Of a stretch of DNA of 40,631 nucleotides, positions 1 to 14,703 are shown piece by piece (position 1 is the stretch's first letter; every line of letters begins with the position of its first letter). The DNA is from a virus, in the IMG/VR virus record IMGVR_UViG_3300017772_000031, positions 1 through 40,631 of that record, one strand, 5' to 3'. The translations under genes were made by a program, and so were the position numbers. Under the pieces are notes generated by a model. That model made no database searches. It saw nothing but the letters and a program-made list of their open reading frames with translations, and was not told the origin of the DNA.

Positions 1-1
1 C

Positions 2-172
2 AGCGAGGCTGTCAACGAGGTCGAGCATGACCTCGACCAGCTAATCGGAGAGGGGTGGGCAGACCCGCTCTACGAGGAGGCTGTCCAGGTCTCGCTTGAG
101 AGCGACGTGCTCCCCACGCTGCGAGAGAGCCTCGACACCGTGCTGCGATTCTGCGACGAGTGGAGCAGATGA
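2..172 (+). CDS. 3' part of a small hypothetical protein cut by the window start
   Basis: An open frame runs from base 2 to TGA at 170-172 (56 codons, no start in view here). It encodes an acidic peptide rich in Glu, Asp and Leu that ends RFCDEWSR. Its stop overlaps the next ATG in an ATGA junction, as in the real genes that follow. If the window ends are joined, bases 40621-40631 supply ATG AAC ACA AG in the same frame, giving a complete 60-residue protein. I recognise no family. The reading frame is seen directly; the circular join is inferred. Confidence 0.6.
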   Translation, partial: SEAVNEVEHDLDQLIGEGWADPLYEEAVQVSLESDVLPTLRESLDTVLRFCDEWSR

Positions 173-324
173 GCCAACCCAAACGAAAGCTACTCGTCTC
201 GCTGCGGGCATTGATTGCCCGTGGCGGGGCGGGCGCAGGGACGCACACCAACCGAGAGATGGACCTCCGCAAGGGGAGGTCTCGCAAGACCAAGCACAAA
301 TCAAGGAGACACGACAATGACTAG
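169..324 (+). CDS. small basic hypothetical protein (51 aa)
   Basis: Begins with ATG at 169, overlapping the previous stop (ATGA), and ends at TAG 322-324, 8 bases into the next gene. The product starts MSQPKRKLLVSLRAL and its C-terminal half is rich in Lys and Arg, suggesting nucleic-acid contact at most. Evidence is limited to position and overlap style, both matching the compact operon around it. No family is recognised, and it could be a chance frame between two real genes. Confidence 0.4.
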   Translation: MSQPKRKLLVSLRALIARGGAGAGTHTNREMDLRKGRSRKTKHKSRRHDND

Positions 325-667
325 GGACGACGTGATGACGCTGGAGACGGTCCTGTGCGAGGGCACGATGGACATGGAGACGGTGTCGAGGATGCAGAGC
401 ATGCTCTACGGGATGGACTCCCCCGTGGGCTCCACCCAAATAAGACTGATGAGCCTTCTGACCTGCCTCGATGAGGCTGAGGATGAGTTGACCGAGATGG
501 GTGGCGACCAGGACGATGAGCGAGTCTCGCACCTGTGGCACAGGATGCGGATGGGCATCGACAGTCTCAACGACGCGATGGACCGTGAGAGGTTCCGTGC
601 GACGACGCTCGAGGCTCTTCGGGCAATGAGCAACGGGTTCGGCATGGACCTGGGGGGTGGGGCATGA
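317..667 (+). CDS. hypothetical protein (116 aa)
   Basis: ATG at 317 is preceded by an AAGGAG ribosome-binding site about nine bases upstream, which favours this start over the longer upstream frame. The protein is acidic, methionine-rich and looks helical (heptad-like MTLETV...METVSRMQSML, then LTCLDEAEDELTEMG). No signal peptide or membrane segment is visible. It overlaps the next gene by four bases (ATGA). No family is recognised; an early accessory protein is likely from its place in the early operon. Confidence 0.65.
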   Translation: MTRDDVMTLETVLCEGTMDMETVSRMQSMLYGMDSPVGSTQIRLMSLLTCLDEAEDELTEMGGDQDDERVSHLWHRMRMGIDSLNDAMDRERFRATTLEALRAMSNGFGMDLGGGA

Positions 668-876
668 CGCGGGCAGTGACCGTGACGGTTGGGCGAGAGT
701 CTGAGAAGCCGGGTACAGGCTGGGAGGACATCTCGGTCGAACTCATGGAGGTCGAGGGTCGGTGGACCGTCCGCTACGCCATCGGTGAGGATGGTGACGA
801 CGTGACGCTGAGTGATGACGAGAGGATCGCAGCAATGCTCATGGCATGGGCTGGCAATGACGAGACAGGCCGATAA
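664..876 (+). CDS. hypothetical protein (70 aa)
   Basis: ATG at 664 overlaps the previous stop. The 70-residue acidic product reads as a small beta-rich domain (VTVTVGRES...WEDISVELMEVEGRWTVRYAIGED) followed by a helix (DDERIAAMLMAWAGND). No catalytic motif, signal peptide or membrane segment is visible, and no family is recognised. It is followed by 22 noncoding bases holding the strong ribosome-binding site of the recombinase-like gene. Confidence 0.6.
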   Translation: MTRAVTVTVGRESEKPGTGWEDISVELMEVEGRWTVRYAIGEDGDDVTLSDDERIAAMLMAWAGNDETGR

Positions 877-898
877 CACACAACGGAGGACGAGGACG

Positions 899-1561
899 AT
901 GACGAGGTATGCATACCTGCGGGGAACCGCAGCAGAGAGACACCATCAGAGCAACTGTCTATATGATTCAGACCTTCTCTCTGAGGCGTGGAGAGACAGG
1001 GACCAAACATTCGACGAGTCCATCAGGGACACATCGACCATCGAGACACCGCTGGAGTCTCGAAAGGCAGTGCGGTCCCTGCTGGCTCGAGTCGGAGCGG
1101 GAGACACCGTCTTCCTCGCCTCGCTGTCGGATGTGTCAAACGACCCGCTGCAGGCGTCAGTGTTCGCTGGGATGATCACAAGCTCTGGAGCCTCGCTTCA
1201 GCCCGTAGACGGAGCCCCGGAGGCTGAGGTGAGCATGACCATGTCGGGCATGGTTGCTCTCATGGAGACCCACCGGAGGGTGTCCGAAGCGGTCAGCAAG
1301 GCTCGACGTGTCATCGACAACGACCGAGTGTTCCAGGGGGGCCGAGTGCCCTACGGAAAGCGTCTCGAGAACGGCTTTCTCATGGTCGATGAGCATGAGC
1401 AGGAGGGGATCGCCCACGCTATCTCTCTGCGGTCGAAGGGGATGTCTCTGCACAAGATATGTCGGAGACTGGAGGAGTTGGGGTACAGGCCGAAGAGCGG
1501 ACGCCAGTGGTACGCGACGGGGGTCCGGCGACTCATCAATTCGCACTCGGACAAGCCATGA
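899..1561 (+). CDS. serine-recombinase-like protein with degenerate active site
   Basis: 220 residues. ATG at 899 has GGAGGA eight bases upstream, better supported than the longer frame. The layout follows small serine recombinases: an N-terminal resolvase-like domain (YAYLRGT at 4-10, GDTVFLASLSDVSND at 68-82) and a C-terminal 'recombinase' DNA-binding region (GGRVPYGKRL at 147-156, EEG..I..RSKGMSLHKICRRLEELG, then SGRQW). In active enzymes the first motif is R-x-S with the nucleophilic serine, and the second carries Arg in LDRLxR. Here the serine position is Gly/Thr and the arginines are Asp and Asn. I infer a DNA-binding pseudoenzyme. It is coupled to queC by an ATGA overlap, so it may regulate or target the modification module. 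Confidence 0.75.
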   Translation: MTRYAYLRGTAAERHHQSNCLYDSDLLSEAWRDRDQTFDESIRDTSTIETPLESRKAVRSLLARVGAGDTVFLASLSDVSNDPLQASVFAGMITSSGASLQPVDGAPEAEVSMTMSGMVALMETHRRVSEAVSKARRVIDNDRVFQGGRVPYGKRLENGFLMVDEHEQEGIAHAISLRSKGMSLHKICRRLEELGYRPKSGRQWYATGVRRLINSHSDKP

Positions 1562-2307
1562 GCCCGACTCTTAGCCGAGTTCTTCTTTCTGGGGGCATGG
1601 ACTCCACCCTATGTCTCATCCTTGCTCTGCGAGAAAACCCATCAGTCGAAGCTGTAGCATGCGACTACGGGCAGAGGCATCGACGTGAACTTGGACAGGC
1701 TGTTCTCATCGCACAAACTCTCTCTGTCCCCCTGAGGGTCGTTCGCGGGCTCGATGTCGGAACAGGACGGCTTACAGGGGAGTCGGGCGAACTCGACTCT
1801 GCTGGTGCGGTGCTTCCCGGTCGCAATCGAGCACTTATTCGAGCCGCAGGATGGCTGGACGGAATACGGGCTGACAAGGTCTGGATAGGGGCTACAGCAG
1901 ACGACTATGAGTCGTTCGTTGACTGCAGGCGATCTTATTTTGACGACCTGGAGGCAGAGTGGGCTCCTCGAGAGGGTTCTACGATGACGATTTGCTCTCC
2001 CCTCGTCACAAAGAGGAAGTCACAAATCGTTTCGATGTTTCGCGAGTACGGAGCAAGCAACCTCCTGACCCACACATATTCCTGTTACCGGGGAGAGAAA
2101 CTCGCTTGTGGGCACTGCGGCGCGTGTCGCTCACGGGTACAGGGCTTCTATGAGGCTGGAGTGAGAGACCCAGGGGCCTATTTTGACAGGAGCCTGCTCT
2201 CACCATGCACATCCTGCCTCGTCATGGGCAAACCAACCCCTCCTGGCATTCGATGTCACGGTTCCGGTGGATGGTCTGACTCTCATCGCGAGAGGAAGGA
2301 AGGATGA
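1558..2307 (+). CDS. queC: QueC-like 7-cyano-7-deazaguanine (preQ0) synthase
   Basis: 249 residues, about the usual QueC length. QueC turns 7-carboxy-7-deazaguanine, ammonia and ATP into preQ0. The PP-loop SGGMDS is at 11-16, CDYGQRHRREL at 35-45, PGRNRAL at 87-93 and VDCRRSYFDDL at 121-131. The zinc site is C176, C184, C187 and C190 (SCY...CGHCGAC). An extra C-terminal tail adds CTSC at 217-220 and C233. The start at 1558 is chosen because the PP-loop then begins at residue 11, as usual, and because it forms an ATGA overlap with the gene before; the longer frame would run well inside that gene. It is coupled to dpdA by a second ATGA overlap. The GAT domain needed for archaeosine-type products is absent, so preQ0 is the expected product. 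Confidence 0.93.
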   Translation: MSPTLSRVLLSGGMDSTLCLILALRENPSVEAVACDYGQRHRRELGQAVLIAQTLSVPLRVVRGLDVGTGRLTGESGELDSAGAVLPGRNRALIRAAGWLDGIRADKVWIGATADDYESFVDCRRSYFDDLEAEWAPREGSTMTICSPLVTKRKSQIVSMFREYGASNLLTHTYSCYRGEKLACGHCGACRSRVQGFYEAGVRDPGAYFDRSLLSPCTSCLVMGKPTPPGIRCHGSGGWSDSHRERKEG

Positions 2308-3074
2308 GTCACGCACAGGAGGTTTGCGCTCGTTTGCAGGAAAACATAAACGAATCGCCAGTAACTGACCCAGCAAATGGACGTGAATACCTAGAGTACA
2401 AGCCTTCTTCGTCACCTTTTTTGTCGATGGGTCGGGTTTCTGGGCCGATGATCCCATACGCATCGCGGACACCCATGCGAAATGCGGTCGATGCGATGGT
2501 GAAGTACGGGTGGAGGATGCTAATTGAGCCGTCTCAAGAGGAGTTCTCGTATGGCATGACACCGTCACCACTTCCCTACATGGTAGACAACGGAGCTTGG
2601 GGATGCTCGCAAAGAGGTATTGAGTGGGACGGAAATTTGTTTCTCAACTATTTGGGAAAGTGGGGCAGCTCTGCAGACATGGTTGTCCTACCCGACATTG
2701 TTTCGGGTGGAGGCAAAAGCCTTGAGTTGTCTGTCCGTTGGATAGACGTGGTGCAAGCCTTTGGGTCGCCAATTCTCCTGGCAGTCCAAGATGGAATGAG
2801 TGAAGAGGATGTTCGGCCCATCCTGTTACGGCACAATGTTGGGCTTTTTGTGGGCGGTTCCACCGAGTGGAAGTTGAAGACCCTTCCCCTGTGGGGTCGG
2901 ATCGCTAGGGAGGTCGGCTGCTGGGCGCACGCTGCAAGAGTGAACACGGCAAAAAGGGTGAAAGCCTGCCAGTTGGCCGGGATGAACTCTTTCGACGGAA
3001 CCACTGTGACCAAATGGCCCTCTACTATTCGACTTGTTGACAACGCGAGGAGACAAACATGTCTATTCCGATGA
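2304..3074 (+). CDS. dpdA: DpdA-type DNA 7-deazaguanine transglycosylase
   Basis: 256 residues, a TGT-fold paralogue that swaps guanine in DNA for preQ0 or a derivative. Visible signatures are DNGAWG at 95-100 and LPDIV at 129-133 (candidate catalytic aspartates), VQDG at 161-164, VGGSTEWKLKTL at 183-194, HAARVNTAKRVKAC at 209-222 and NSFDGT at 228-233. The pattern VGGSTEWK followed by H..RVN...R and FDGT is typical of the phage DpdA group rather than tRNA-acting TGT, which is longer and has a different zinc site. ATG at 2304 overlaps the queC stop and follows GGAAGGA. With QueC next door, the likely modification is dPreQ0; this is inferred. Confidence 0.9.
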   Translation: MSHAQEVCARLQENINESPVTDPANGREYLEYKPSSSPFLSMGRVSGPMIPYASRTPMRNAVDAMVKYGWRMLIEPSQEEFSYGMTPSPLPYMVDNGAWGCSQRGIEWDGNLFLNYLGKWGSSADMVVLPDIVSGGGKSLELSVRWIDVVQAFGSPILLAVQDGMSEEDVRPILLRHNVGLFVGGSTEWKLKTLPLWGRIAREVGCWAHAARVNTAKRVKACQLAGMNSFDGTTVTKWPSTIRLVDNARRQTCLFR

Positions 3075-3268
3075 CCGACCACACACGATGCGTCGTCCGC
3101 TCCACCCTCTATGGTCCGTGGGCCTCCTGCGGTCCTGAGTGCCTTGTGGTGGAGCGTTACGCTTGGGGCATGGGGGCACGGGGAGAGCCGCTCCCTGATG
3201 AGGTGCCAGACCTCGCACGGGAGGCGTGGCAGCATGGCGAGCGAGTGACCAGGAGGGCGAGGCGATGA
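3059..3268 (+). CDS. hypothetical protein (69 aa)
   Basis: ATG at 3059 lies inside the end of dpdA (16-base overlap) after a purine-rich GAGGAG stretch. The stop forms an ATGA overlap with the next gene. The product has two close cysteines (WASCGPECLVVERYAWGMG) and a basic C-terminus (ERVTRRARR). No membrane segment or known motif is visible and no family is recognised. Gene spacing on both sides is the main support. Confidence 0.6.
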   Translation: MSIPMTDHTRCVVRSTLYGPWASCGPECLVVERYAWGMGARGEPLPDEVPDLAREAWQHGERVTRRARR

Positions 3269-3600
3269 TGAAAAGACTGTTGATAGCTCTGGCTCTCTCC
3301 TTTCCCGTGTCGCTCGCTGCTGGGGATGACCCCGAAGTCCTGATGAAGTCTCGATGCGTGGGGGAGTGGGAGGATGACTTCCGCATGCAGAGGTACTGCG
3401 TGGACAAGGAAATTGTCTCCATGACCCAGGTCGGGGAGTACATCGAGAAGCATGGTCTGCATGAGAAGGATTCGTCCGACCCCCGATATCGGATCTTGTC
3501 GAAGTGCCTCTACGAGTGGACCGACGAGCACGGCCCATATTGGAGGATGGTCCACTATTGCAATCGGAAGCAGGCCGAAGCCTGGGAGTCGATGAGATGA
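3265..3600 (+). CDS. secreted or periplasmic protein with duplicated Cys-x3-W motif
   Basis: 111 residues. ATGATG at 3265 overlaps the previous stop. Residues 1-19 form a classical signal peptide (MMKRLLIALALSFPVSLAA). The mature part holds two copies of one pattern: C31..EW.DDFRMQRYC45 and C81LYEWTDEHG..RMVHYC99, each followed by a polar stretch. The paired cysteines suggest one disulfide per repeat in an oxidising compartment. It is the last gene before the structured gap at 3601-3808. An envelope role such as superinfection exclusion is possible but not shown by the sequence. Confidence 0.75.
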   Translation: MMKRLLIALALSFPVSLAAGDDPEVLMKSRCVGEWEDDFRMQRYCVDKEIVSMTQVGEYIEKHGLHEKDSSDPRYRILSKCLYEWTDEHGPYWRMVHYCNRKQAEAWESMR

Positions 3601-3662
3601 TCTCGCCCACACCCTTGACCCCGAACCCAGCGGACCACTAGAGTCCATCCACGTCCTTCGGG

Positions 3663-3793
3663 TCGCTCTTGGTTGAGCCTCCCCCCTTGTCTCCGGTTGA
3701 TCCCCGGAAAACGGCAAGGGGGGGGGTAGAGAGCGCCCGAACCACCAAGAGCGAGAAGACAAGTCTCTCGCCGCACCCTGCCGTCTCACGGCA
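3663..3793 (+). other. nested stem-loop region upstream of the replication initiator
   Basis: This 208-base gap (3601-3808) has no gene but strong pairing. The outer arms TCGCTCTTGGT (3663-3673) and ACCAAGAGCGA (3744-3754) match perfectly. A middle C-rich arm at 3678-3691 pairs with the G-run arm at 3713-3726 over 14 base pairs, two of them G-T. TCCGG (3692-3696) pairs with CCGGA (3704-3708) around a 7-base loop. Two more hairpins follow: GCGAGA/TCTCGC (3751-3756 with 3766-3771), which competes with the outer arm, and TGCCGT-CTC-ACGGCA (3779-3793), ending just before the ribosome-binding site GGAGAG. No U-tract follows, so this is not a simple terminator. It could be a structured 5' leader, an antisense-controlled switch or a DNA replication element. 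Confidence 0.6.
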
Positions 3794-3808
3794 TCGGAGA
3801 GTTGCGCC

Positions 3809-4765
3809 ATGAAGAGATACAACCGCGTGTCGAGGAACCTGTGGACTGACGGTGGGCTCATCAAGCTCGAGCCGATCAAGTTCTCCGTCCCATGCCTATA
3901 CCTCTACCTGATGACCTGCGACAGACCCACCCGCATCGCAGGTCTGTTGCGGGGAGCGGGGACCATCTGCGACGACACCGGATGGTCACCGGATAGGGTA
4001 TCCGATGGGGTATCCGCACTGCATAAGGAGGGGCTACTCACAGTGAGTTCGAGACCCTCCTACATCCTCGTCCATGAGGCTCTCGCGTTCGACCTACCCG
4101 ACCCAGGGAAGGCGACTGTCGGAGCACTCAGAGACCTCGACTCTCTGCCCGACTGCGAGCCTGTTCGACTCGCCAGGTCCATCATCGAGGACAGGGGACT
4201 GGATAGGGTATCCGATAGGGTATCCGATAGGGTATCGGTATCCCATGCGAAGCCAGGAACAGGAACAGGAACAGGAACAGATACCCCCAAGCCCCCTACG
4301 GGGGTGAGTCGGTCTGTTGATTCTGTCTGGACATCCTGGCGGTCTCATCACCCGACAGCCCGAAAGGCTCCGACAGCAGGCCAGCGAAGGACGATCACCT
4401 CGAGGCTCAAAGACTACAGCGAACAGGAGATCGCTCAATACTTCTTGTGGCTCAAGGAGTCTGACCATGAGCGAGCGAAATACTGTCGAGAGCATGGGCA
4501 TGACGGCTTCAGTTCTGTCATGCGCCCCAGCAACATCGACGAGCGGATGGACTGGGTCCACCAGTGGACAATCGAGGACAGCCCAGAGAACTCATATCCC
4601 ATGTGGCTCGAGCATGACGTGATGAGCAAAGTCCGTCGTGAGCGACTGGGCAGTGATGACCTGACGGATGACCTGCTGATGGCCCATCCGAGAGCATCTG
4701 AGACCACGCCGCTTCAGCGTGAACGGGTCATGGAGATGTGCCGAACACAGATGGGTTGGTCGTGA
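3809..4765 (+). CDS. replication initiator, O-like, with winged-helix N-terminus
   Basis: 318 residues. ATG at 3809 follows GGAGAG. The N-terminus (about 20-90) matches phage replication winged-helix domains: IKFSVPCLYLYLMT, a glycine-rich RIAGLLRGAG, then VSDGVSALHKEGLLTV. A low-complexity linker (DRVS repeats, then GTGTGTGT, about 130-160) is encoded by DNA repeats that look like origin iterons. The C-terminal region (VWTSWRSHHPTAR, RRTITSRLKDYSEQEIAQYFLWLKES, about 170-225) resembles the DNA-binding or helicase-recruiting part of such proteins. The DnaB-like gene follows immediately, as with lambda O/P and P22 18/12. It should bind the origin and load the helicase. Confidence 0.75.
   Translation: MKRYNRVSRNLWTDGGLIKLEPIKFSVPCLYLYLMTCDRPTRIAGLLRGAGTICDDTGWSPDRVSDGVSALHKEGLLTVSSRPSYILVHEALAFDLPDPGKATVGALRDLDSLPDCEPVRLARSIIEDRGLDRVSDRVSDRVSVSHAKPGTGTGTGTDTPKPPTGVSRSVDSVWTSWRSHHPTARKAPTAGQRRTITSRLKDYSEQEIAQYFLWLKESDHERAKYCREHGHDGFSSVMRPSNIDERMDWVHQWTIEDSPENSYPMWLEHDVMSKVRRERLGSDDLTDDLLMAHPRASETTPLQRERVMEMCRTQMGWS
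3991..4015 (+). repeat. iteron pair 1 inside the initiator gene
   Basis: GATAGGGTATCC at 3992-4003 is followed directly by GATGGGGTATCC at 4004-4015, a 12-base direct repeat with one mismatch. With the preceding G, the first copy reads GGATA-GGG-TATCC, a perfect dyad. Both repeat and dyad match the second cluster at 4201-4243. Confidence 0.7.
4201..4243 (+). repeat. iteron cluster 2, candidate replication origin
   Basis: Three tandem 12-base units occupy 4202-4213, 4214-4225 and 4226-4237 (GATAGGGTATCC twice, then GATAGGGTATCG), followed by a partial GGTATCCC. Each unit has GGATA/TATCC dyad symmetry. They encode the DRVS repeats of the initiator linker. Origins nested in the initiator gene are known for lambdoid O genes. 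Binding by the encoded protein is inferred. Confidence 0.65.
4255..4304 (+). repeat. AGGAAC x4 tract and C5/G5 hairpin beside the iterons
   Basis: Four perfect AGGAAC hexamers fill 4255-4278 (encoding Gly-Thr repeats). They are followed by CCCCC-TAC-GGGGG at 4292-4304, a tight hairpin. The tract is purine-rich on the plus strand, so it could serve as the unwinding or strand-bias element next to the iterons. Confidence 0.6.
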
Positions 4766-6066
4766 GCCTCCCAGACCGAGTGCCCCACGACATTGGTGCG
4801 GAGAGGGCTCTACTCGGAGCCGTTCTCCTCTCCCCTGGTGTGTTCCACCTGGCTCAGGGAGAGGGATTCACGAAGGAGCACTTCTTCAAGGAGGCAAGCC
4901 GACTCATCTGGGATGTTTTCGCGTACTGCGACCGAGCAGGGTCTCTCGATGTGACCCTCGTTGCGGGAAGGTTGGAGGAGCTGGGCAAACTCGAACGCAT
5001 TGGTGGGGTCGTTTGGCTGCTCGACCTGTCTGCGTCGTGCCCCAGCATCCACAACGCAAAGCGATACGTCGAGACCATCATGCGTCATGCCCGGTCGAGA
5101 GCCCTGCTTCTCGCTGGGGAGCAGATGCGACACGCCATCCTGTCTGGTGAGAACCCAGACGACGCTGCAGCAATCGTGAACAGGACGTTCGCTGAGGGGC
5201 AGGTTGACCCAGCCTCTGCAGAGTGGGCGTCCGACACCATCGACAGGCTTAGGCCACAGTTCAGTGCTCGACAGAAGCCGGATAGGTTCTTGCCCCTGGA
5301 GAGCAGGGTTCTGAGAGGGATGGTCGGAGGGATCGCGAAAGGACACATCCTCCTTGTCGTTGGCCTACCCGGCATGGGCAAAAGCGTATTCATGGATGGA
5401 CTGTGCGTTGACCTCGCTGTCGAGCATGGCATCTCTGGATGTCTGTTCAGCCTCGAGATGAGCCTCGACGCGGTCACCGAGAGGAGAATCAGCAGGCTCG
5501 CGTCCGTCAACTACGGAGCGGTGCAGGACCGACAGGTCACTGACGAGGAGCTATTTCACGTAGACCAGGCGATGAACCGTCTGGACACCGCCCCCCTGAT
5601 GACCGACGAAAAGCTCTATACGGTCCACCAACTGTGCGCTCGCGCTCGAGCAGGCCAGAGAGAGCATGAGTGGCAATGGATAGGCATCGACCATCTGCAT
5701 GAGTTTCGGAAGACGGACCCGAACATGAGTCCGCAGGCGCACATGCAGGAGGTTGCTGACGCCCTGCATGAGTTGTGCAAGACCACGAAGCTTGCAGTCA
5801 TTCTCGGAGCGCAGATGAACTCGGAGGCTCGTAACCGAAAAGACCCCCGACCTCGTCTCGGAGACGTGCGGTACGGCAAGCCGGTGGAAGAGAAGGCTGC
5901 AGTCATGCTGGGCATCTACAGGGACCACGTCATCAACCCCTCGCCTGAGCGTAGGTTTGAGGTGGACATCAACGCTGCGAAGAGCCGGTTTGGAACCGGT
6001 GGAAGATGCATCATGCGCTGGGAGGGTCACTTCCAGCGCGTAGTCGATACGCCCATAGGGTTTTAA
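4738..6066 (+). CDS. dnaB: DnaB-like replicative DNA helicase
   Basis: Up to 442 residues; hexameric 5'-3' helicase expected at the fork. The N-terminal domain has the DnaB pattern HDIGAERALLGAVLLSP (17-33). Walker A is GLPGMGKS at 209-216, followed by CLFSLEMS (235-242) and a Walker B-like WIGIDHLHEF. A sensor segment LAVILGAQMNSEARNRKD and GDVRYGKPVEEKAAVML follow. Two GTG starts are possible, 4738 and 4762. The second gives a GTGA overlap with the initiator; neither has a strong ribosome-binding site, which suggests translational coupling. Its place right after the initiator supports a paired replisome role using host polymerase. Confidence 0.93.
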   Translation: MPNTDGLVVSLPDRVPHDIGAERALLGAVLLSPGVFHLAQGEGFTKEHFFKEASRLIWDVFAYCDRAGSLDVTLVAGRLEELGKLERIGGVVWLLDLSASCPSIHNAKRYVETIMRHARSRALLLAGEQMRHAILSGENPDDAAAIVNRTFAEGQVDPASAEWASDTIDRLRPQFSARQKPDRFLPLESRVLRGMVGGIAKGHILLVVGLPGMGKSVFMDGLCVDLAVEHGISGCLFSLEMSLDAVTERRISRLASVNYGAVQDRQVTDEELFHVDQAMNRLDTAPLMTDEKLYTVHQLCARARAGQREHEWQWIGIDHLHEFRKTDPNMSPQAHMQEVADALHELCKTTKLAVILGAQMNSEARNRKDPRPRLGDVRYGKPVEEKAAVMLGIYRDHVINPSPERRFEVDINAAKSRFGTGGRCIMRWEGHFQRVVDTPIGF

Positions 6067-6077
6067 GGAGGAGAGAC

Positions 6078-6263
6078 ATGGACAACGAAGCACCAGTCAG
6101 AGAGATGCACCCCGAAGACTTCTGGAAACCATCACCGGACTGGGTCATCTGCCCTGTCTGCAAGGGTCATGGGGTGGGGGAGAGAGACCTGTGCGACCTG
6201 TGCGAGGGGGCGAGGGTAATATCTGTAGAGACATTTAACACATGGAGTTCCCTGGAGGAGTGA
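6078..6263 (+). CDS. small zinc-ribbon protein (DnaJ-like CxxCxGxG)
   Basis: 61 residues, ATG at 6078 with AAGGAGGAG just upstream. It carries CPVCKGHGVGERDLCDLCEGAR, written here in parts as CPVCKGHG and CDLCEG, a single zinc knuckle like those in the DnaJ cysteine-rich domain. The rest is short and acidic. It overlaps the next gene by four bases if that starts at GTG 6260. Its role is unknown; it is one of several mini zinc proteins in this phage. Confidence 0.7.
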   Translation: MDNEAPVREMHPEDFWKPSPDWVICPVCKGHGVGERDLCDLCEGARVISVETFNTWSSLEE

Positions 6264-6493
6264 GCGACAAGCCGAAGATCGTCCTAACGCTGGACCGTTG
6301 CGAGCACTACGCAGTGGCTGAGTGGTTGGAGAAGTTCTGCAGAGCATGCGGACAGCCGTATGTCGCGCTCGATGCGTGTTCTGTGTGTGGTGAGCCTGCG
6401 CTCCAGGCCCAGGTGCAGGAGAGCAGCCAGAGGGACGAGGCTTCGGAGTTCGCTATCGCGCTCGACGTGATGGGGGTGGGGGGAGACGGGTGA
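6260..6493 (+). CDS. small zinc-ribbon protein
   Basis: 77 residues from GTG 6260 (GTGA overlap with the previous stop), or 83 residues from ATG 6242. The GGAGGA directly before 6260 is too close to be ideal, so the start is uncertain. Motifs CRACG and CSVCG about 16 residues apart form a likely zinc ribbon after a short region (KIVLTLDRCEHYAVAEWLEKF). The acidic C-terminus overlaps the next gene (GTGA). Function is unknown. Confidence 0.6.
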   Translation: MSDKPKIVLTLDRCEHYAVAEWLEKFCRACGQPYVALDACSVCGEPALQAQVQESSQRDEASEFAIALDVMGVGGDG

Positions 6494-6723
6494 CCGATAG
6501 CGAGAAAGAGATGTACGAGGAGAGGGTCTCAATAATCTTGGAGTCTGGTGACATCCCCGCGTGGAAAGCGAGGATGACCGCAAGCAAGCAACTAGAGAGA
6601 TGGAGGAGTCATGCAGGACACATACGGAGGGATGCCACCGTTCGTTTCGGGGTCGGAGACATCGGAGAAGGCGTCCTCGAGGGCGAAAGAGTCAGCGTCC
6701 TCGATGAGGGAGCGAGTACATAG
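6490..6723 (+). CDS. hypothetical protein (77 aa) overlapping the next gene
   Basis: GTG at 6490 overlaps the previous stop. The first ~45 residues (TDSEKEMYEERVSIILESGDIPAWKARMTASKQLERW) look like a genuine helical small protein. The 3' part overlaps the winged-helix gene at 6611 by 113 bases in another frame and is less protein-like. It may truly overlap, or a short version may be real. No family is recognised. Confidence 0.5.
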   Translation: MTDSEKEMYEERVSIILESGDIPAWKARMTASKQLERWRSHAGHIRRDATVRFGVGDIGEGVLEGERVSVLDEGAST

Positions 6724-6955
6724 GCACCTAGAGGCATGCGGTGAGCGCGGCTCAACCGACGACGAGTTGGAGGTGGCACTGGGACTACTACATCAGACTG
6801 CGTCAGCCCGAAGACGTGAGCTTGAACTCATGGGCAGGGTAGTGAAGACCGACAGGGAGAGGAAGACTAGGACAGGATCTGCAGCAGCGGTCTATTGCTC
6901 AGAGGACTCCGCTCGACCCCATCGGCAAACCACCATGTTCGCCATCCATGATTGA
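6611..6955 (+). CDS. winged-helix DNA-binding protein
   Basis: 114 residues, ATG at 6611 right after GGAGGAG (6602-6608). After a polar N-terminus, residues ~33-95 form a typical phage winged helix: MRERVHRHLEACGERGSTDDELEVALGL (in parts), SARRRELELMGRVVKT and RKTRTGSAAAVY, matching the pattern in which a promoter-reading helix is followed by a basic wing. This suggests a small transcription regulator or accessory replication protein. It overlaps the previous gene by 113 bases and the next by eight. Confidence 0.65.
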   Translation: MQDTYGGMPPFVSGSETSEKASSRAKESASSMRERVHRHLEACGERGSTDDELEVALGLLHQTASARRRELELMGRVVKTDRERKTRTGSAAAVYCSEDSARPHRQTTMFAIHD

Positions 6956-7160
6956 GCGCGTCACATCCTCAGACGGTCTAACCTGGACCGTGCAAAAGAA
7001 CGACAGGGAGGCGTGGGCTATCTGCTCGTCTGGCTCCGTCTGGGTATCGAGGTCCAAACTCGAGGTCTACGCGCTTCCGTATGTACCCCTCGAGGTGATG
7101 GAGAAGCTCTGGTCCATGCGACCTCCTCAGAGGCGCTCAACGACTGCGGAGCCCTCGTAG
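6948..7160 (+). CDS. hypothetical protein (70 aa)
   Basis: ATG at 6948 overlaps the previous stop by eight bases. The sequence (SSDGLTWTVQKNDREAWAI, VWVSRSKLEVYALPYVPLEVMEKLW) looks like a compact beta-rich domain with several tryptophans. Its 3' end overlaps the convergent methyltransferase gene by 34 bases, which marks the edge of the inverted cassette. No family is recognised. Confidence 0.55.
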   Translation: MIERVTSSDGLTWTVQKNDREAWAICSSGSVWVSRSKLEVYALPYVPLEVMEKLWSMRPPQRRSTTAEPS

Positions 7161-7735
7161 CCTTTCTCCCAGGTAAACCATCCGTAGTCGTACAGGTCAG
7201 TGCCCCCACCAGGGGCGAACGATGGTCGTCTACCCAGAACCCCTAGGTGGAAGAATCCAAAGTCCTGATACAGGTTCACCCGTCTCTTGCCCGCAAGAAA
7301 CGCGAGCCTCAGGAGGAAGGTCACCCTCGAGCCGTCACCTATGTGGCGCATAGAGTGCTCGACGAACTCCTGAGCCAGAGAAAACGGAGGGTTCCCTACA
7401 ACCCATACGTCTCCCCGGTCTTTGAGCCCTGCTGGCTGAAGCTCGAGGAAGTCGTACTCAATAACGTGTACTCCGTCCTGGCGGCTCATCTCTGAGCGTT
7501 CGGCGTCCAGTTCTACGCCGAGTATCGACGCAGTGGGGAAGTACGCATCTCGCCAACCCTTAAGCCTTGAAAGCATTGCCCCGTCCCCGCAAGAGGGCTC
7601 GATGATCGTCGAGCACTCCTCCGGCGCGGCCTCGCTACGGAGCATGTCTCGCACACACCATTCCGGTGTCGCGTAAAAATCATCTGGGTGCCTACCCCTG
7701 ACCGGTGCCCTCTGTGGGAAGAGAGAGAACGTCAT
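7127..7735 (-). CDS. orphan DNA methyltransferase (N6-adenine type)
   Basis: 202 residues. FYATPEW (20-26), the SAM-binding motif I EPSCGDGAM (46-54), acidic VELD (74-77) after it and catalytic NPPF (115-118) follow in the order of amino-methyltransferases that modify adenine (NPPF/Y). No restriction enzyme lies beside it, so it is probably protective or regulatory. It starts at ATG 7735, sharing four bases with the XRE gene, so the two are translated together. It runs against all neighbouring early genes, as an inserted cassette would. Target sequence is unknown. Confidence 0.85.
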   Translation of the reverse strand: MTFSLFPQRAPVRGRHPDDFYATPEWCVRDMLRSEAAPEECSTIIEPSCGDGAMLSRLKGWRDAYFPTASILGVELDAERSEMSRQDGVHVIEYDFLELQPAGLKDRGDVWVVGNPPFSLAQEFVEHSMRHIGDGSRVTFLLRLAFLAGKRRVNLYQDFGFFHLGVLGRRPSFAPGGGTDLYDYGWFTWEKGYEGSAVVERL

Positions 7736-7968
7736 CGCGTAACGTCCACCCGCTCTTCGCTGGTGAGCCAGTCCGACACTCGTACAGTGTCGTTTGTGAG
7801 ATGAGCAATCCTATGCTGGTGAGCCATCCCAGGCCGAACGGTTCCGTCGAACCATTTGTACAGGGTCTGCCTCGTCACAGAGCATAGCCCTGCGAACTCA
7901 ACTCGACTCATGTCCTGTCTGTCCAGCCACGCTTTAAGGGTGCGGGAGCCCTCTGTGATGTTCGCCAT
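7732..7968 (-). CDS. XRE-like helix-turn-helix regulator
   Basis: 78 residues from ATG 7968 (a GTG at 8013 would give 93). Residues 19-46 make a Cro/CI-type helix-turn-helix: DMSRVEFAGLCSVTRQTLYKWFDG, in the usual order with a Gln-Thr-Leu recognition helix. It is small, with no dimerisation or peptidase domain, more like an R-M controller or Cro than a full CI. It overlaps the methyltransferase start (ATGA). The intergenic space upstream carries a sigma70-like promoter and repeated ACATACGT, its likely operator. Confidence 0.8.
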   Translation of the reverse strand: MANITEGSRTLKAWLDRQDMSRVEFAGLCSVTRQTLYKWFDGTVRPGMAHQHRIAHLTNDTVRVSDWLTSEERVDVTR

Positions 7969-7986
7969 TTCGTAGAGATACACTCC

Positions 7987-8021
7987 ACATACGTGTCGCC
8001 CCACGGTTGACACACATACGT
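7987..8021. promoter_or_regulatory. candidate XRE operator: two ACATACGT repeats
   Basis: ACATACGT occurs at 7987-7994 and 8014-8021, 27 bases apart and on the same face of the helix to within a fraction of a turn. The pair flanks the -35 box of the rightward promoter and lies upstream of the leftward XRE gene, so one protein could control both directions. Binding is inferred. Confidence 0.45.
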
Positions 8022-8035
8022 CGTCAGCCTACTCT
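8007..8035 (+). promoter_or_regulatory. sigma70-like promoter for the 8061-11319 genes
   Basis: TTGACA (8007-8012) is a perfect -35. A 17-base spacer leads to TACTCT (8030-8035), a weaker -10. Transcription would start near 8042, just before the AGGAG site (8048-8052) of the 8061 gene. It overlaps the ACATACGT repeats. Confidence 0.5.
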
Positions 8036-8060
8036 CCGCTGCAACCCAGGAGCACAACCA

Positions 8061-8255
8061 ATGAGTCGAAGAAAAGCCAGGTGGTCTGTAGCCACGTATC
8101 CCGTCAGCGAAGGTGGGAGGTCTTTATGGGTCTCTCTCATCAAGAAAAACGGCAAGCTCATCCAGAAGATTGAGCAGGCCGGGAGGCGTAACGACGCGCA
8201 GCAAGCGGCCATCGAGGCCCTCGAGTTGCTCCGTAACGAGGAACCGTCTCTGTGA
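8061..8255 (+). CDS. hypothetical protein (64 aa)
   Basis: ATG at 8061 has AGGAG eight bases upstream, so the longer frame from 8007 is rejected. The protein is basic (MSRRKARWSVATYPV, LWVSLIKKNGKLIQKIEQAGRR) with a helical C-terminus. It looks like a small nucleic-acid-associated protein. It is the first gene after the promoter at 8007 and couples to the next by GTGA. No family is recognised. Confidence 0.6.
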   Translation: MSRRKARWSVATYPVSEGGRSLWVSLIKKNGKLIQKIEQAGRRNDAQQAAIEALELLRNEEPSL

Positions 8256-8476
8256 ACTGCGTCGAATGCGGCTCTGTTCTGCCCTCCTCTCGCTCCCGGT
8301 GCGACAGGTGCTCGCCTAGCGTCCGTCTCGTATCGGGGTCGAGCAAAGACGACTCTCTTTGCGGATGTGCGCTCGACATGCGCTCCGCACACAAGGCGAC
8401 ATGCCGTCGCCACCCGTCCTATGTGGACTCTCTGTTGAGCCCAGCGAACGGACCACACTGCGTGGGTGCTTTGTGA
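8252..8476 (+). CDS. cysteine-rich zinc-ribbon protein (74 aa)
   Basis: GTG at 8252 overlaps the previous stop. Motifs CVECG (3-7) and CDRC (17-20) make a first zinc ribbon. A second group, CGCALDM...C (37-51), and a histidine-rich tail follow. The first ribbon resembles the N-terminal zinc-ribbon module of many small bacterial proteins. Function is unknown; it may bind DNA, RNA or a host protein. Confidence 0.6.
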   Translation: MNCVECGSVLPSSRSRCDRCSPSVRLVSGSSKDDSLCGCALDMRSAHKATCRRHPSYVDSLLSPANGPHCVGAL

Positions 8477-8565
8477 TGTCTGGTCGAGACAGAGCCGGGT
8501 TCGCCATTTGTTTATTTGTTCTCTGCCTCATCGCAGGGATAGCCATTGGAGTTTTCTGTGACTGA
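8476..8565 (+). CDS. 29-residue single-pass membrane peptide
   Basis: ATG at 8476 shares one base with the previous stop (a GTG at 8473 would give GTGA). The peptide MSGRDRAGFAICLFVLCLIA (first 20) continues in a hydrophobic run to GIAIGVF and ends CD, so one membrane span with a positive N-terminal flank. It ends 8 bases inside the Erf gene. Small membrane peptides in early operons can act on host physiology; no evidence shows that here. Confidence 0.45.
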   Translation: MSGRDRAGFAICLFVLCLIAGIAIGVFCD

Positions 8566-9208
8566 GCCAACACATTCAAACGTTTACGAAGCCATCAACG
8601 CTGTCATGCAGGAGATTGGATACGTGTACAAAGGGACAAAGGTAGACATGGGAGGTGGTCGTTCGTACCGGGCTGCCGGTGAAGCGGAGCTTCTCAAGGC
8701 TCTTCGACCCGTCATGGTCCGTCATGGGCTCATGATCATGCCCATCCAGCATGAGGTGGAGTCCGTACATGAGATGCTCCCGAAGTTCTACCGTGGGAAG
8801 AAGGAGGGGGAAAGGTCCAGCCGAACCGTAAGGGTGAACAGCATCTACCGGATAGCCCATGTGTCTGGTCAATACGTGGATGTCGCCGCAGCAGGCGAAG
8901 GCCAGGACACCGGGGACAAGGCGACAGCAAAAGCCCTGACCATCGCCATGAAGTACGCGCTTCGACAATCGTTCGCGCTCGAGACGGGCGACGACCCAGA
9001 CCGAGAGCGTCCTGAGAGGCAGTTCGAGCGGACAGACACGCCCGATGTGATTGACGCAGCGAAGAAGCGGCTCCGTCAGGTGTTTGGAGACAACCACGCT
9101 GAGGCTGGCCTCATGGTGAAAGAGTCCACCGGACTCGACCTCAGAGAAGCACTCAGTGACTCGTCAGCATGTCAGGTAATCATCAACGCATTGTCCAAGG
9201 AGTCCTGA
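8558..9208 (+). CDS. erf: Erf-family single-strand annealing protein
   Basis: 216 residues. GTG at 8558 has GGAG six bases upstream. The N-terminal domain follows Erf/Rad52-like phage annealases: YEAINAVMQEIGYVYKGTKVDM, written in parts, then AGEAELLKALRPVMVRHGLMIMP, EVESV, and the conserved GEGQDTGDKATAKALTIAMKYAL split around residues 112-135, ending QSFALETGDDPD. It would anneal complementary single strands during recombination and genome circularisation. The C-terminal part is variable, as usual. It sits with Gp157, SSB and RuvC-like genes. Confidence 0.88.
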   Translation: MTEPTHSNVYEAINAVMQEIGYVYKGTKVDMGGGRSYRAAGEAELLKALRPVMVRHGLMIMPIQHEVESVHEMLPKFYRGKKEGERSSRTVRVNSIYRIAHVSGQYVDVAAAGEGQDTGDKATAKALTIAMKYALRQSFALETGDDPDRERPERQFERTDTPDVIDAAKKRLRQVFGDNHAEAGLMVKESTGLDLREALSDSSACQVIINALSKES

Positions 9209-9774
9209 TGGAACAGCACATTCTCACAACGGGTCAAATCGAAGACACCCTGGCCTACATCTCAGACATGGAGGCTCGCATCGACCTCCTCACCGACAGC
9301 GGGGAAGACATCGTCAGAGCTGACGCAATGATTGAGAAGATTAACGAGGCACTCGACGCCCTGGGCGAGAGTATCCCAGCGAAGGCAGAGAGGGCGGTGT
9401 ACGTCCTGAGGGCGGCAGAGTCGAGGCGAGACCTCATGAAGAAGCATGAGGCGCAACTCAAGGCTAGGAGGGCTCGAGAGGAGAAGACCATCGAACGGGT
9501 GCGAGACGTTGTCGCAAGGCTTCTCGCCGCACACAAGGAGCACCAGTCAGACCCTAAAGCAAAGCTTCAGACTGACGCCGGAACTATTTACGAAACCTCA
9601 AGAACCAGGGTCGTTGGGCCGGACGACATCTCGCTCTGGCCTGCTGAGTTCTTGAGGCACAGGGGACCAGAGCCAGACAAGTCGAAGGTGGACAGAGAAC
9701 TTCGCAACACGCCAGAAGATGAACTACCGCAAGGGTTTACGCGGGTAACTAAAAGGAGCACTTCAGTAAGATGA
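9208..9774 (+). CDS. siphovirus Gp157-like protein
   Basis: 188 residues; ATG at 9208 follows AAGGAG. Long helical coiled coil (about 10-115: ISDMEARIDLLTDSGEDI, MIEKINEALDALGES, KKHEAQLKARRAREEKTIERV) followed by the family's C-terminal beta region: KLQTDAGTIYETSRTRVVGPDDI, split here, WPAEFLRHRGPEPDKSK and the TSVR end. This is the Gp157 pattern, often next to annealases or SSB in phages and linked to recombination or phage resistance. Exact activity is not known. It overlaps ssb by ATGA. Confidence 0.8.
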   Translation: MEQHILTTGQIEDTLAYISDMEARIDLLTDSGEDIVRADAMIEKINEALDALGESIPAKAERAVYVLRAAESRRDLMKKHEAQLKARRAREEKTIERVRDVVARLLAAHKEHQSDPKAKLQTDAGTIYETSRTRVVGPDDISLWPAEFLRHRGPEPDKSKVDRELRNTPEDELPQGFTRVTKRSTSVR

Positions 9775-10169
9775 GCAATGCAATCACAATTACAGGGAAT
9801 CTCGGAGCCGACCCAGAGCGAAGGGTTGAAGGTGCAGGGCCAGTAGAGGTGCGTGTCGCAGACTCAACCGGATATGGAGAGCGCAAGCGAACCACCTGGT
9901 GGAAGTGCGCTGTCTGGGGGAAGACCGGAGAGTACGCACTCGCAAACCTCAAGAAGGGAGACATGGTTGTCGTCTATGGAGAAGCACACCTTGATGAGTG
10001 GGAGGGCAGAGATGGCTCGAAACGATCAACCCTTGTCCTCAACTGCAACCGACTCGACGGACCATTCCAGCGCAGGAAACTCGGAGACCGTGACGACAGC
10101 CCCCAGCGAAGGGATGCTCCGACTTCACGACCTGCGCCAAAGAAGTACGAAGACGACATCCCGTTCTAG
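9771..10169 (+). CDS. ssb: single-stranded DNA-binding protein
   Basis: 132 residues. OB-fold SSB signature: ITITGNLGADPERR near the start, TTWWKCAVWGKTGEYALANLKKGDMVVVYGE in parts, and RSTLVLNCNRLD. The linker is proline-rich and the C-terminus is EDDIPF, the acidic tail through which SSBs bind partner proteins. ATG 9771 overlaps the previous stop. It coats single strands for the DnaB fork and Erf annealing. Confidence 0.95.
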   Translation: MSNAITITGNLGADPERRVEGAGPVEVRVADSTGYGERKRTTWWKCAVWGKTGEYALANLKKGDMVVVYGEAHLDEWEGRDGSKRSTLVLNCNRLDGPFQRRKLGDRDDSPQRRDAPTSRPAPKKYEDDIPF

Positions 10170-10200
10170 TCGCCGCATACCTCGAGGCGAGAAGGTGGCG

Positions 10201-10422
10201 ATGGTCATACAGGAACTTATGTGCCGGAAGATGACCTGGAGGGAAGGGGTAGACCTCATCGGAGTGAAGTCGAGGAGCATCTGGTATCGCATCCTCGATG
10301 ACATCGAGATAGCCGACTGGAAGGTGAAGAGGTACTACAAGCCGGGGTCTCTGCAGGCCCACTACTACATCGACCTCAACGACCCATGGAAGGGAAGAAG
10401 CCTTGAAGATACTAGCTATTGA
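10201..10422 (+). CDS. hypothetical protein (73 aa)
   Basis: ATG at 10201, with a weak GAAGGTGG upstream; the longer frame inside ssb is rejected because it would read the ssb coding sequence out of frame. The product is basic with a possible helix-turn-helix (KMTWREGVDLIGVKSRSIWYRI) and aromatic-rich tail (WKVKRYYKPGSLQAHYYIDL). It overlaps the RuvC-like start by 20 bases. A small DNA-binding role is possible. Confidence 0.55.
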   Translation: MVIQELMCRKMTWREGVDLIGVKSRSIWYRILDDIEIADWKVKRYYKPGSLQAHYYIDLNDPWKGRSLEDTSY

Positions 10423-10885
10423 CCCAGGGACAACGTCGTCTGGCGTTGTCGTCTACTGCTCTCAAGAAAAGCTTGTACTTTGGGCTACTAAGGCACTGGA
10501 AAACAACGAGGTTCTTGCTCTCATCTCTAAGGTGGGGGCAGGAGCCTCGACTCCTTTGCCGAGCATAGTTGCCGTCGAGCGGGTCCAGGCTCAAGGTCTG
10601 GCAGGCAACGATGTCCTCAAGACCGCAGAGTGGTCAGCTCGCTTTGTTCAGTCGGCAGAGTGTTTCGGACTGCCCTTTCGGTGGCACTACCGAAGAGAGG
10701 TGTGCAGGCACCTCGACGTTTCGGGCGGGAAGAAGGACAGCCAGGTTCGAGAGAGATGTATCGAGCTTCATGGCGGGGACAAGAGCGCAGCAGTCGGCGT
10801 GAAGAAAAGCCCTGGCCCTCTCTACGGGGTCAGCGGTCATGCTTGGCAGGCTCTTGGTCTCGCTCTTCTCGTCGCTGACATATAG
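10403..10885 (+). CDS. RuvC-like Holliday-junction nuclease
   Basis: 160 residues from TTG 10403, after a purine-rich AAGGGAAGAAG. The RNase H-like fold shows AIDPGTTSSGVV (Asp7), VAVERVQAQG (Glu59) and a last helix GHAWQALGLAL. In RuvC the last helix normally carries two acidic residues (DxxDA); here His146 and Gln149 stand there, so metal binding may differ. It should resolve branched recombination intermediates before packaging. Confidence is high for the fold and moderate for activity. Confidence 0.8.
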   Translation: MKILAIDPGTTSSGVVVYCSQEKLVLWATKALENNEVLALISKVGAGASTPLPSIVAVERVQAQGLAGNDVLKTAEWSARFVQSAECFGLPFRWHYRREVCRHLDVSGGKKDSQVRERCIELHGGDKSAAVGVKKSPGPLYGVSGHAWQALGLALLVADI

Positions 10886-10923
10886 GCCCTGACAAGACAG
10901 GGACTGTTCAGAAAGGTTTTCTA

Positions 10924-11124
10924 GTGCCGATTTACGAGTACAAGTGTGGGTCTTGTGGCTCCGAGTTCAGCGTACTGTCCAGCCACAGGGACAGCGAGCG
11001 GCCTCGACCGTGCCCTGACCCTGTATGCCTTGAGCCCGAAGCGAGGAAGGTCGTGTCTCGCACGTCATTCGCGCTGAAGGGCGACGGGTGGGCAAGTGAC
11101 GGCTACTCAGGAAAGGGTAAGTAG
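10924..11124 (+). CDS. FmdB-family zinc-ribbon protein
   Basis: 66 residues, GTG at 10924. The start PIYEYKCGSCGSEFSVL is the FmdB signature with CxxC, followed by a second pair in RPCPDPVC. The C-terminus KVVSRTSFALKGDGWASDGYS is also typical of this phage/bacterial group. FmdB proteins were linked to regulation, but the phage forms are uncharacterised. A second FmdB-type domain occurs at 35612. Confidence 0.8.
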   Translation: MPIYEYKCGSCGSEFSVLSSHRDSERPRPCPDPVCLEPEARKVVSRTSFALKGDGWASDGYSGKGK

Positions 11125-11319
11125 TTGTACATCATCATGCAGGCGAGCCACGCGCATCGGTCACCTCGAGCTTCGGAGGCTTACCGGGGGCCGACAACAA
11201 AGGTCGCTGGGGTCAAGCCGGGTGTCGTCTACTCGTCGCTTAAGGATGCAGAGAAAGACTCTGCAAGGCTTAGGGAGTGGAACCCCGCAGGGTTTGTTGT
11301 CGTCAGCATAAGCAAGTGA
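11125..11319 (+). CDS. hypothetical protein (64 aa)
   Basis: TTG at 11125 has AAAGGG seven bases upstream. The internal ATG at 11137 lies too far from it. The sequence has a basic N-terminus and a compact C-terminal half (GVVYSSLKDAEKDSARLREW NPAGFVVVSISK in parts). This helix-strand end is reminiscent of small phage DUF proteins, but I recognise no family. Confidence 0.5.
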   Translation: MYIIMQASHAHRSPRASEAYRGPTTKVAGVKPGVVYSSLKDAEKDSARLREWNPAGFVVVSISK

Positions 11320-11338
11320 CTAGCGCCCATGCTTTGGG

Positions 11339-11347
11339 TGCTACGAT
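11339..11347 (+). promoter_or_regulatory. possible extended -10 promoter for lysis genes
   Basis: TG-C-TACGAT at 11339-11347 resembles an extended -10 and ends seven bases before ATG 11355. No matching -35 is seen. If used, the transcript would start at or very near the ATG, a leaderless message, which would fit the lack of a ribosome-binding site there. Confidence 0.3.
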
Positions 11348-11354
11348 TCCGCGC

Positions 11355-11597
11355 ATGAAAAACCAGAGCAAGCGTAAGGACACAGAGAGCGAGAGCAGAA
11401 GGCTCAAGTTCCTGGGGATGGTCATTGCTACTGGCGGGTGCATCCTAGCAAAGGAGTCGTCCGTAGAGATTGCTGGGATCTACGCAGCCTTCGTTGGAGG
11501 AGCGGCGTATCTAGGGTCAAAGTACATCTCTGGCGAGACATCCCGACCCAGCGGCTCTGTCGAGGCAATACCACCCATCTCGGAAGTGTCTGACTAA
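11355..11597 (+). CDS. small two-span membrane protein, holin candidate
   Basis: 80 residues, ATG at 11355. Two hydrophobic stretches, LKFLGMVIATGGCILA (about 18-33) and VEIAGIYAAFVGGAAYLGS (about 37-55), are separated by a short charged turn, with a basic N-terminus and a polar tail. This is the size and shape of a class II holin. It opens the cluster leading to the M15 endolysin. Similar topology could also serve an antiholin; function is inferred from place and shape. Confidence 0.55.
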   Translation: MKNQSKRKDTESESRRLKFLGMVIATGGCILAKESSVEIAGIYAAFVGGAAYLGSKYISGETSRPSGSVEAIPPISEVSD

Positions 11598-11956
11598 TGT
11601 CTCGAGTTCCCTGGTGGGGGTGGGCTCTCGTCGCAATAGCCGCATCCCTTGTTCTCCTTGTAGCTATCCCACCCCTGCGGGATTTGGTTGTCGCAGGTAT
11701 TGCTTCCGTATTCGCTACAGCAGTCGGAGTAAAGGCGACGAAAAGGGTGGCGCAGGCGCGAAGCAATGCGACCGAAGCAGTCGAAGAGCACCGCGATAAC
11801 GTTGCAGCCGAGTCGCTACAGGTCGAGAAGAGGGAAGAAAGGGACGAGGACCGCGCCTCAGAGGCTCTAGCCGAAGATACGAAGGCTGACGAGCCCGAAG
11901 GAGACGAAGAGCGCAGAGAGCGAATGGAGGCTCTCGGAAAGGATCCTCTGTCGTGA
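11597..11956 (+). CDS. membrane-anchored coiled-coil protein (spanin or holin-like)
   Basis: 119 residues; TAATG overlap with the previous gene. N-terminal hydrophobic span(s) WWGWALVAIAASLVLLVAIP (about 6-25) and LVVAGIASVFATAVGV (about 30-45) precede a long charged coiled coil (AQARSNATEAVEEHRD, VEKREERDEDRASEALAED). An N-terminal membrane anchor plus periplasmic coiled coil is the layout of inner-membrane spanins. No lipobox-bearing partner is evident, so the call is tentative. Confidence 0.5.
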   Translation: MSRVPWWGWALVAIAASLVLLVAIPPLRDLVVAGIASVFATAVGVKATKRVAQARSNATEAVEEHRDNVAAESLQVEKREERDEDRASEALAEDTKADEPEGDEERRERMEALGKDPLS

Positions 11957-12387
11957 CCATCACAATCGACATCCGCCTGGTCCTTCTCCTCGCAAGCACC
12001 CTCGTCCTCACCGGAGCAAAGAAGCACAGGCTTATCGACCCCATACCGTGGGAGGAAGCGGCACGCTACGTGCCAAAGCCCCTAGAAGATGTGGTCACAG
12101 ACAGAGCCCCTGCCCTCGCTGGAGACCCTGTTCCTTTTGACGGATGGGTCTTAGGTGGCAAGTCGTTTAGCCGTGTTGTCGAGTCGTATGAAGATACCTC
12201 GCGTGCGCTGAAGGCTTGCTACCTCTGGAGAGAGCAGGACCGAGTGTTCGCTGACCGGATACACGCATCCACCGTTGAGGGTTTGCGAGTCTGCAGAAAC
12301 AGTAAGCCCAGGGACTTTGCAGCAGGAGCCGCTATCGGTTTTGCTGGATGTGCAGGAGTCGGATGGGCAGTGGAGAGCGCAAGATGA
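11953..12387 (+). CDS. secreted or membrane protein, possible spanin
   Basis: 144 residues, GTG at 11953 (GTGA overlap). Residues 5-20 (IDIRLVLLLASTLVLTG) look like a signal or anchor. The middle holds VPFDGWVLGGKSF, resembling the conserved APF(D/S)GVLL patch of some phage spanin-like proteins, then a helix (YEDTSRALKACYLWREQDRVF). A second hydrophobic segment, FAAGAAIGFAGCAGVGWAV, lies near the end. Two anchors with a soluble middle suggest an envelope-spanning part. It precedes the endolysin by an ATGA overlap. Confidence 0.5.
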   Translation: MTITIDIRLVLLLASTLVLTGAKKHRLIDPIPWEEAARYVPKPLEDVVTDRAPALAGDPVPFDGWVLGGKSFSRVVESYEDTSRALKACYLWREQDRVFADRIHASTVEGLRVCRNSKPRDFAAGAAIGFAGCAGVGWAVESAR

Positions 12388-12908
12388 GCCGACGAATGGA
12401 AGACCTCGAGCCTGACTTTCGAGAGACATGCTCTCAGGTAATCAAAGCATGCACAGAGAAGGGCGTGGACATGCGCCCGTTCTTCACCGCAAGGCACCCG
12501 GTGGAGCAGGGAGCCCTGTGGAGGCAGTCCCGAAGCTCGAGCGAGGTGAAGTCCGTAATCCATCACCTACAAGAGAACGGTGCGAAGTACCTTGCTCAGT
12601 GCATTGTAGATGCCGGTCCTCAGTCTGGAAGGTGGGCGACGAACGCTATACCGGGCATGTCTTGGCACCAGTGGGGGCTGGCTATCGACTGCTATTGGTT
12701 GGTGGACGGTCGCGCTGAGTGGGGCGCACAGGCTGTCCATGACGGCATCAACGGCTACAAGGTCTACGAGCAGACTGCTGAGTCTTTTGGCCTGCGGTCT
12801 TTGGCAAGCATGGGGGATGCGGTCCACATCCAAAAGCCGCAGGAGAGTTCGCCAAAGAGCCTTAGTCTTGTTGAGATTGACCAGGCAATGAGAGAGCGGT
12901 GGAGATAA
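12384..12908 (+). CDS. M15-family peptidase endolysin
   Basis: 174 residues. VanY/L-alanyl-D-glutamate peptidase pattern: SWHQWGLAIDCYW (zinc ligands H95 and D102) and GDAVHIQ (H148), with a serine-rich loop before them. It cuts peptide stems of peptidoglycan. No signal peptide or wall-binding domain is visible, so release through a holin is expected. Ends 14 bases before the next start. Confidence 0.9.
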   Translation: MSRRMEDLEPDFRETCSQVIKACTEKGVDMRPFFTARHPVEQGALWRQSRSSSEVKSVIHHLQENGAKYLAQCIVDAGPQSGRWATNAIPGMSWHQWGLAIDCYWLVDGRAEWGAQAVHDGINGYKVYEQTAESFGLRSLASMGDAVHIQKPQESSPKSLSLVEIDQAMRERWR

Positions 12909-12922
12909 GCGACAGGTAACAA

Positions 12923-14096: not shown

Positions 14097-14104
14097 AGAG
14101 ACCC

Positions 14105-14470: not shown

Positions 14471-14507
14471 CGATCTATCTCATCACCGATAGGTACGTTT
14501 TTTCCAT

Positions 14508-14702: not shown

Positions 14703-14703
14703 C

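Follow-up and report, generated by a model that had tools for sequence, protein, structure and literature searches.

The recombinase-like gene and its neighbours

The window analysed here is a stretch of 40,631 nucleotides, positions 1 to 40,631 of the IMG/VR virus record IMGVR_UViG_3300017772_000031. Close to its start, on the plus strand, as are the queC-like, DpdA-like and small phage genes after it, an open reading frame runs from an ATG at 899 to a stop codon at 1559-1561 and encodes a serine-recombinase-like protein of 220 amino acids. A Shine-Dalgarno-like GGAGG (885-889) was read 9 nt before the ATG. The stop codon of this gene overlaps the start codon of the next in an ATGA at 1558-1561, and the downstream gene (1558-2307) is queC-like, an identity that is well supported (PF06508, E 2.7e-37; PHROG_1550, E 1.9e-46). 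It is followed by a DpdA-like gene (2304-3074), assigned by tblastn matches at ~30% identity to proteins annotated as DpdA-like tRNA-guanine transglycosylases; one similar protein is annotated as DarB-like antirestriction. The DpdA-like product also matched PHROG_15826 (E 4.3e-37), which is of unknown function; it had no Pfam match, and a PDB search with it returned nothing useful. The GC content of dpdA is 52.9%, below that of its flanks. A small phage gene (3059-3268) lies beyond.

Several other elements were observed in the window. Iteron-like repeats (GATAGGGTATCC; repeat family D2) at 3988-4016 and 4186-4238 lie within a DnaD/O-like initiator gene and represent a candidate lambda-O-type replication origin. 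The intergenic stretch at 3640-3808 contains a predicted hairpin (folding z -4.1), with an 11-bp perfect inverted repeat (TCGCTCTTGGT/ACCAAGAGCGA) shortly before the initiator gene. A 48-nt unit in four head-to-tail copies (repeat family D1) was found at 23271-23462 in a minus-strand gene, and two strong terminator-like inverted repeats are located near the window end (39694-39725 and 40408-40445).

Comparison with a near-identical phage

A second viral contig, IMGVR_UViG_3300006793_000154 (30,589 bp; hereafter the twin), aligned with window positions 1-1561 at 97.8% identity and with positions 3088-3888, including the hairpin stretch, at 95.9%, with 10 nt between the two alignments. The twin encodes a protein 99% identical to the 899-1561 protein, and at this locus it lacks the queC-dpdA cassette (1562-3087); the same ATGA there joins the recombinase-like gene directly to the small phage gene that lies at 3059-3268 in the window. 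The twin contig accounts for ~30.6 kb of a genome estimated at 47 kb and is without the counterpart of window 3889-18800; the absence of the cassette therefore holds for this locus. Elsewhere in the twin contig, searches with QueC and DpdA gave weak partial matches only, the best of which (E 0.008) has a counterpart in the window at a distance from queC; in the window the two genes themselves were matched in full. The cassette, present at window 1562-3087 and absent at the corresponding 6660-6674 of the twin locus (L002), marks a difference in gene content here, having been gained or lost between near-identical phages. A stretch of ~6.4 kb in the twin contig (L012, 2373-8747) links the end of the window to its start, which implies that the genome is about 47 kb long and either circular or circularly permuted. 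A gene for a DNA methyltransferase (phrog_116, E 2e-66) lies in this stretch.

The original prediction, made from the window alone, had coupled the recombinase-like gene to queC and had raised the idea of an accessory or targeting factor for DpdA, translated with the base-modification operon; such a factor would steer DpdA to DNA. The gene does adjoin queC through the ATGA overlap and its product has a predicted DNA-binding fold. However, the coupling is not supported by comparison with the twin, which keeps the protein without 1562-3087 at this locus and with its ATGA overlap formed with another phage gene. The distribution expected of a gene that accompanies queC and dpdA was also not seen elsewhere, as an HMM search found no serine-recombinase relative in any of eight other phage loci (seven around a dpdA-like gene and one around queC, with flanks of up to 10 kb, shorter at record ends). 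Furthermore, DpdA and Gat-QueC of phage 9g modify plasmid DNA in E. coli when expressed as the only two phage genes (PMC6884629). The phage queC-dpdA modification clusters of that report resemble the window, in which queC and dpdA adjoin a recombinase-like gene, but no serine recombinase is mentioned among their components in its searched text, and a limited search of the open-licence literature found none tied to DpdA. As a 98%-identical virus keeps the protein in the same place without the modification genes, a specific tie to queC or dpdA is not supported, and a role in targeting DpdA appears very improbable.

Domain composition

The 899-1561 protein consists of an eroded resolvase-type domain followed by a well-kept recombinase (RD) module. 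The RD module, a predicted DNA-binding module, occupies residues 145-220 (1331-1558). Pfam Recombinase PF07508 matched residues 166-215 (E 7.4e-6; 26.6 bits against a cut-off of 21.1) and the integrase family PHROG_95 matched residues 106-214 (E 2.1e-11), in agreement with the earlier reading of the C-terminal region as well kept. The C-terminal part of the protein scored 65.5 bits, compared with a maximum of 6.3 among 2000 shuffles, and an HMM of 19 relatives from which the protein itself had been left out detected it with an E-value of 1.9e-18 over profile positions 46-223. A module of the same Recombinase type was observed in an Acidimicrobiaceae protein (L025, 2584-3222), fused there to ArdC-N (PF08401, E 2.2e-9; PF07508, E 3.1e-4), which indicates that the module is also used without a resolvase domain.

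Residues 1-138 (899-1312) correspond to the resolvase-type domain and a long helix. The resolvase family PF00239 was not matched by the protein in Pfam at E-values up to 1, nor in the genome search, whereas three intact relatives matched it with E-values of 1e-34 to 1e-42. Residues 1-138 alone scored 9.9 bits, a score equalled by 1 of ~1,860 scorable shuffles, and a score this weak indicates that the N-terminal domain is heavily eroded by sequence. Alignment of this domain alone with hhalign was likewise weak (probability 13.6), and a sequence search of the PDB with the complete protein gave no match.

The fold was assessed with an AlphaFold2 model built with 21 sequences (mean pLDDT 69.9, pTM 0.41), in which aligned true recombinases guided the prediction and residues 10-36 were poorly modelled. 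The N-terminal half of the model matched the catalytic domains of Sin and gamma-delta resolvase with Z-scores of 10-11.7; the match of residues 2-123 to the Sin catalytic domain (5c32) had a Z-score of 11.7 and an rmsd of 2.8 over 104 residues. Foldseek matched the model to 2gm4 (E 3e-7), and residues 144-220 matched the Bxb1 RD with a Z-score of 8.0 and an rmsd of 2.1 over 76 residues. A model made without recombinase relatives, from the two near-identical sequences only, was too poor for use (pLDDT 41.7). The N-terminal half therefore has the resolvase catalytic fold in a model that was itself guided by the recombinase alignment, and the fold is supported rather than proven.

Loss of the catalytic residues

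Catalytic positions were compared, in gamma-delta numbering, in an alignment (A9) of 21 rows comprising the 899-1561 protein, its twin and 19 relatives. Four residues have been lost from the 899-1561 protein: S10 is replaced by T10 (codon 926-928), R68 by D78, R71 by N81 (the Asp78-Asn81 codons, which replace the two LDRLxR arginines, lie at 1130-1141) and E124 by H125. Y6, R8, D36 (D44), R45 (R55) and R125 (R126) are retained; D44 was placed from the HMM alignment, since the gap in A9 sits one column away, and the E124 and R125 positions were placed from the rows of A9. The losses at S10, R68 and R71 are confined to the 899-1561 protein and its twin, the other rows having S, R and R in 19 of 19 cases, and no other serine aligns with the position of the nucleophile. 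The alignment and the model thus bear out the earlier reading of an R-x-S motif without its serine and of an LDRLxR motif without its arginines. A change of D67 to S77 was also considered and was rejected as a real loss, S or T being common at this position in intact relatives (SLSRVSR).

To avoid picking relatives by their catalytic motif, full-length proteins were additionally sampled from viral contigs by the C-terminal module alone. Both motifs were intact in all 33 proteins so obtained, which are not all independent (26 are distinct in the first 120 residues). The 899-1561 protein has the RD module of an active small serine recombinase (PF07508), and lacks the nucleophilic serine of R-x-S and the arginines at positions 68 and 71.

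It is conceivable that Thr10 serves as the nucleophile of a recombinase that is still active, as Arg8, Asp44, Arg55 and Arg126 are kept. Both LDRLxR arginines are, however, replaced as well, by Asp and Asn, the serine and the two arginines are invariant across the 19 aligned relatives, and S10A abolishes the activity of Tn3 resolvase (PMC9943657). There is accordingly very little chance that the protein still recombines DNA.

Selection and divergence

The 899-1561 gene differs from its counterpart in the twin by 9 synonymous and 2 nonsynonymous changes, and by 7 and 0, respectively, within residues 1-135. This comparison involves one phage pair and 11 changes in total; within it the dead domain looks to be under purifying selection. 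All sampled active relatives are distant from the protein, whose branch is very long (4.85 changes per site). After the catalytic loss the protein therefore probably changed rapidly before it came under constraint.

The long branch and the eroded N-terminal domain would also be expected of a recombinase remnant that has lost all function and is decaying. The 7 synonymous and 0 amino-acid changes in the dead domain argue instead that the gene is not a decaying pseudogene, and the open reading frame and ribosome site are intact in both phages. A functionless remnant is consequently improbable.

Relatives and potential partners

Close relatives of the protein were scarce. Searches of phages by tblastn found no homologue at 1e-5; relaxing the E-value yielded only weak serine integrases, and further tblastn searches only weak plasmid recombinases. 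A viral scan with the protein returned the near-twin only and a genome scan with the protein alone returned nothing, while a profile scan with a further alignment (A3) detected none in viral contigs and four distant loci in genome contigs. Scans with neighbouring and other phage genes gave a similar picture: viral scans with the single DpdA and QueC proteins retrieved no relative, a viral scan with DnaB gave one short distant match only, and with the terminase the scan picked up fragments of related phages, which do not carry the recombinase-like gene.

Neither contig gave a further match to a serine or a tyrosine recombinase, and the protein therefore has no obvious active partner in these phages. 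A dead subunit directed against other recombinases would form mixed dimers with a serine recombinase of the host, a prophage or a superinfecting phage, or would occupy its sites. Retention of the predicted fold and of the DNA-binding module without the chemistry is compatible with such a role, as is the lack of a serine-recombinase partner in either phage contig, from which it follows that any partner would be foreign. Against this, the branch of 4.85 changes per site separates the protein from all sampled active relatives and lowers the likelihood that it pairs with a present-day recombinase in mixed dimers. An action against foreign recombinases is thus unlikely.

Discussion

These data appear to suggest that the 899-1561 protein is a former small serine recombinase, with a resolvase domain and a short RD module, which has lost its chemistry but persists in the early region of the phage as a protein that binds DNA, either as a repressor or in an architectural role, independently of queC-dpdA. 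A rough probability of 0.6 is given to this reading. The original prediction that a recombinase fold has lost its chemistry and may have been repurposed as a regulator finds support in the missing catalytic residues, in the retention of the modelled fold and of the DNA-binding module, and in the apparent purifying selection on the gene.

A mechanism can be proposed in which we infer the dimerisation, DNA binding, target site, regulatory outcome and phenotype of the protein. Strand-cleavage chemistry would have been lost from a small serine recombinase with retention of the fold, and the resolvase fold and the long helix would continue to mediate dimerisation or higher-order contacts. DNA binding would fall to the RD/HTH module, which would recognise a site that is partly palindromic; once bound, the protein would act as a repressor or in an architectural role on the DNA of the phage or the host, and would do so independently of the queC-dpdA cassette. 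A search of the window for palindromic operators gave 7 overlapping matches, which came from two terminator-like hairpins, compared with 4-9 in controls, and no recurring palindrome stood out above control.

In its architecture the protein resembles the small serine recombinases (Tn3/gamma-delta resolvase and Sin) and the short phage and plasmid proteins that combine a resolvase domain with PF07508 (L031, L035 and L044), all having 220-235 amino acids and a short HTH module of the Recombinase type after the resolvase fold. It differs from these in having lost the nucleophile and both LDRLxR arginines, which every sampled relative retains. Within the Tn3 family, TnpR illustrates that a serine-recombinase fold can serve both repression and non-catalytic DNA architecture, as is proposed here: it also represses tnpA and tnpR (PMC7157771), and the catalytically dead S10A resolvase of Tn3 still serves at accessory sites II and III (PMC9943657). 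TnpR itself, however, retains catalysis, whereas the 899-1561 protein has lost key catalytic residues.

The closest analogue is MrpR of the Bacillus prophage SPbeta, in which a tyrosine-recombinase fold has lost catalysis and become a master repressor (PMC10516654). Both are recombinase folds of phages with the catalytic residues lost, but MrpR is of the tyrosine type and is a tested repressor, while the 899-1561 protein has the predicted serine-recombinase fold and is a putative regulator with a putative DNA-binding role. A more specific proposal, that it is the serine-recombinase counterpart of MrpR, without the nucleophile and both LDRLxR arginines and controlling the adjoining early or replication region, is tentative and rather doubtful at present. 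In a limited search of the open-licence literature, no catalytically dead serine recombinase was described in the role of a phage regulator.

The comparison with the twin provides a clear case of the gain or loss of queC-dpdA between otherwise near-identical phages. If the 899-1561 protein does bind DNA as a regulator, the label of integrase, when derived from PF07508 or PHROG_95 alone, would be no proof of a temperate or recombining phage. It would then also show that serine recombinases, like the tyrosine recombinases exemplified by MrpR, can turn into phage regulators through the loss of their chemistry.
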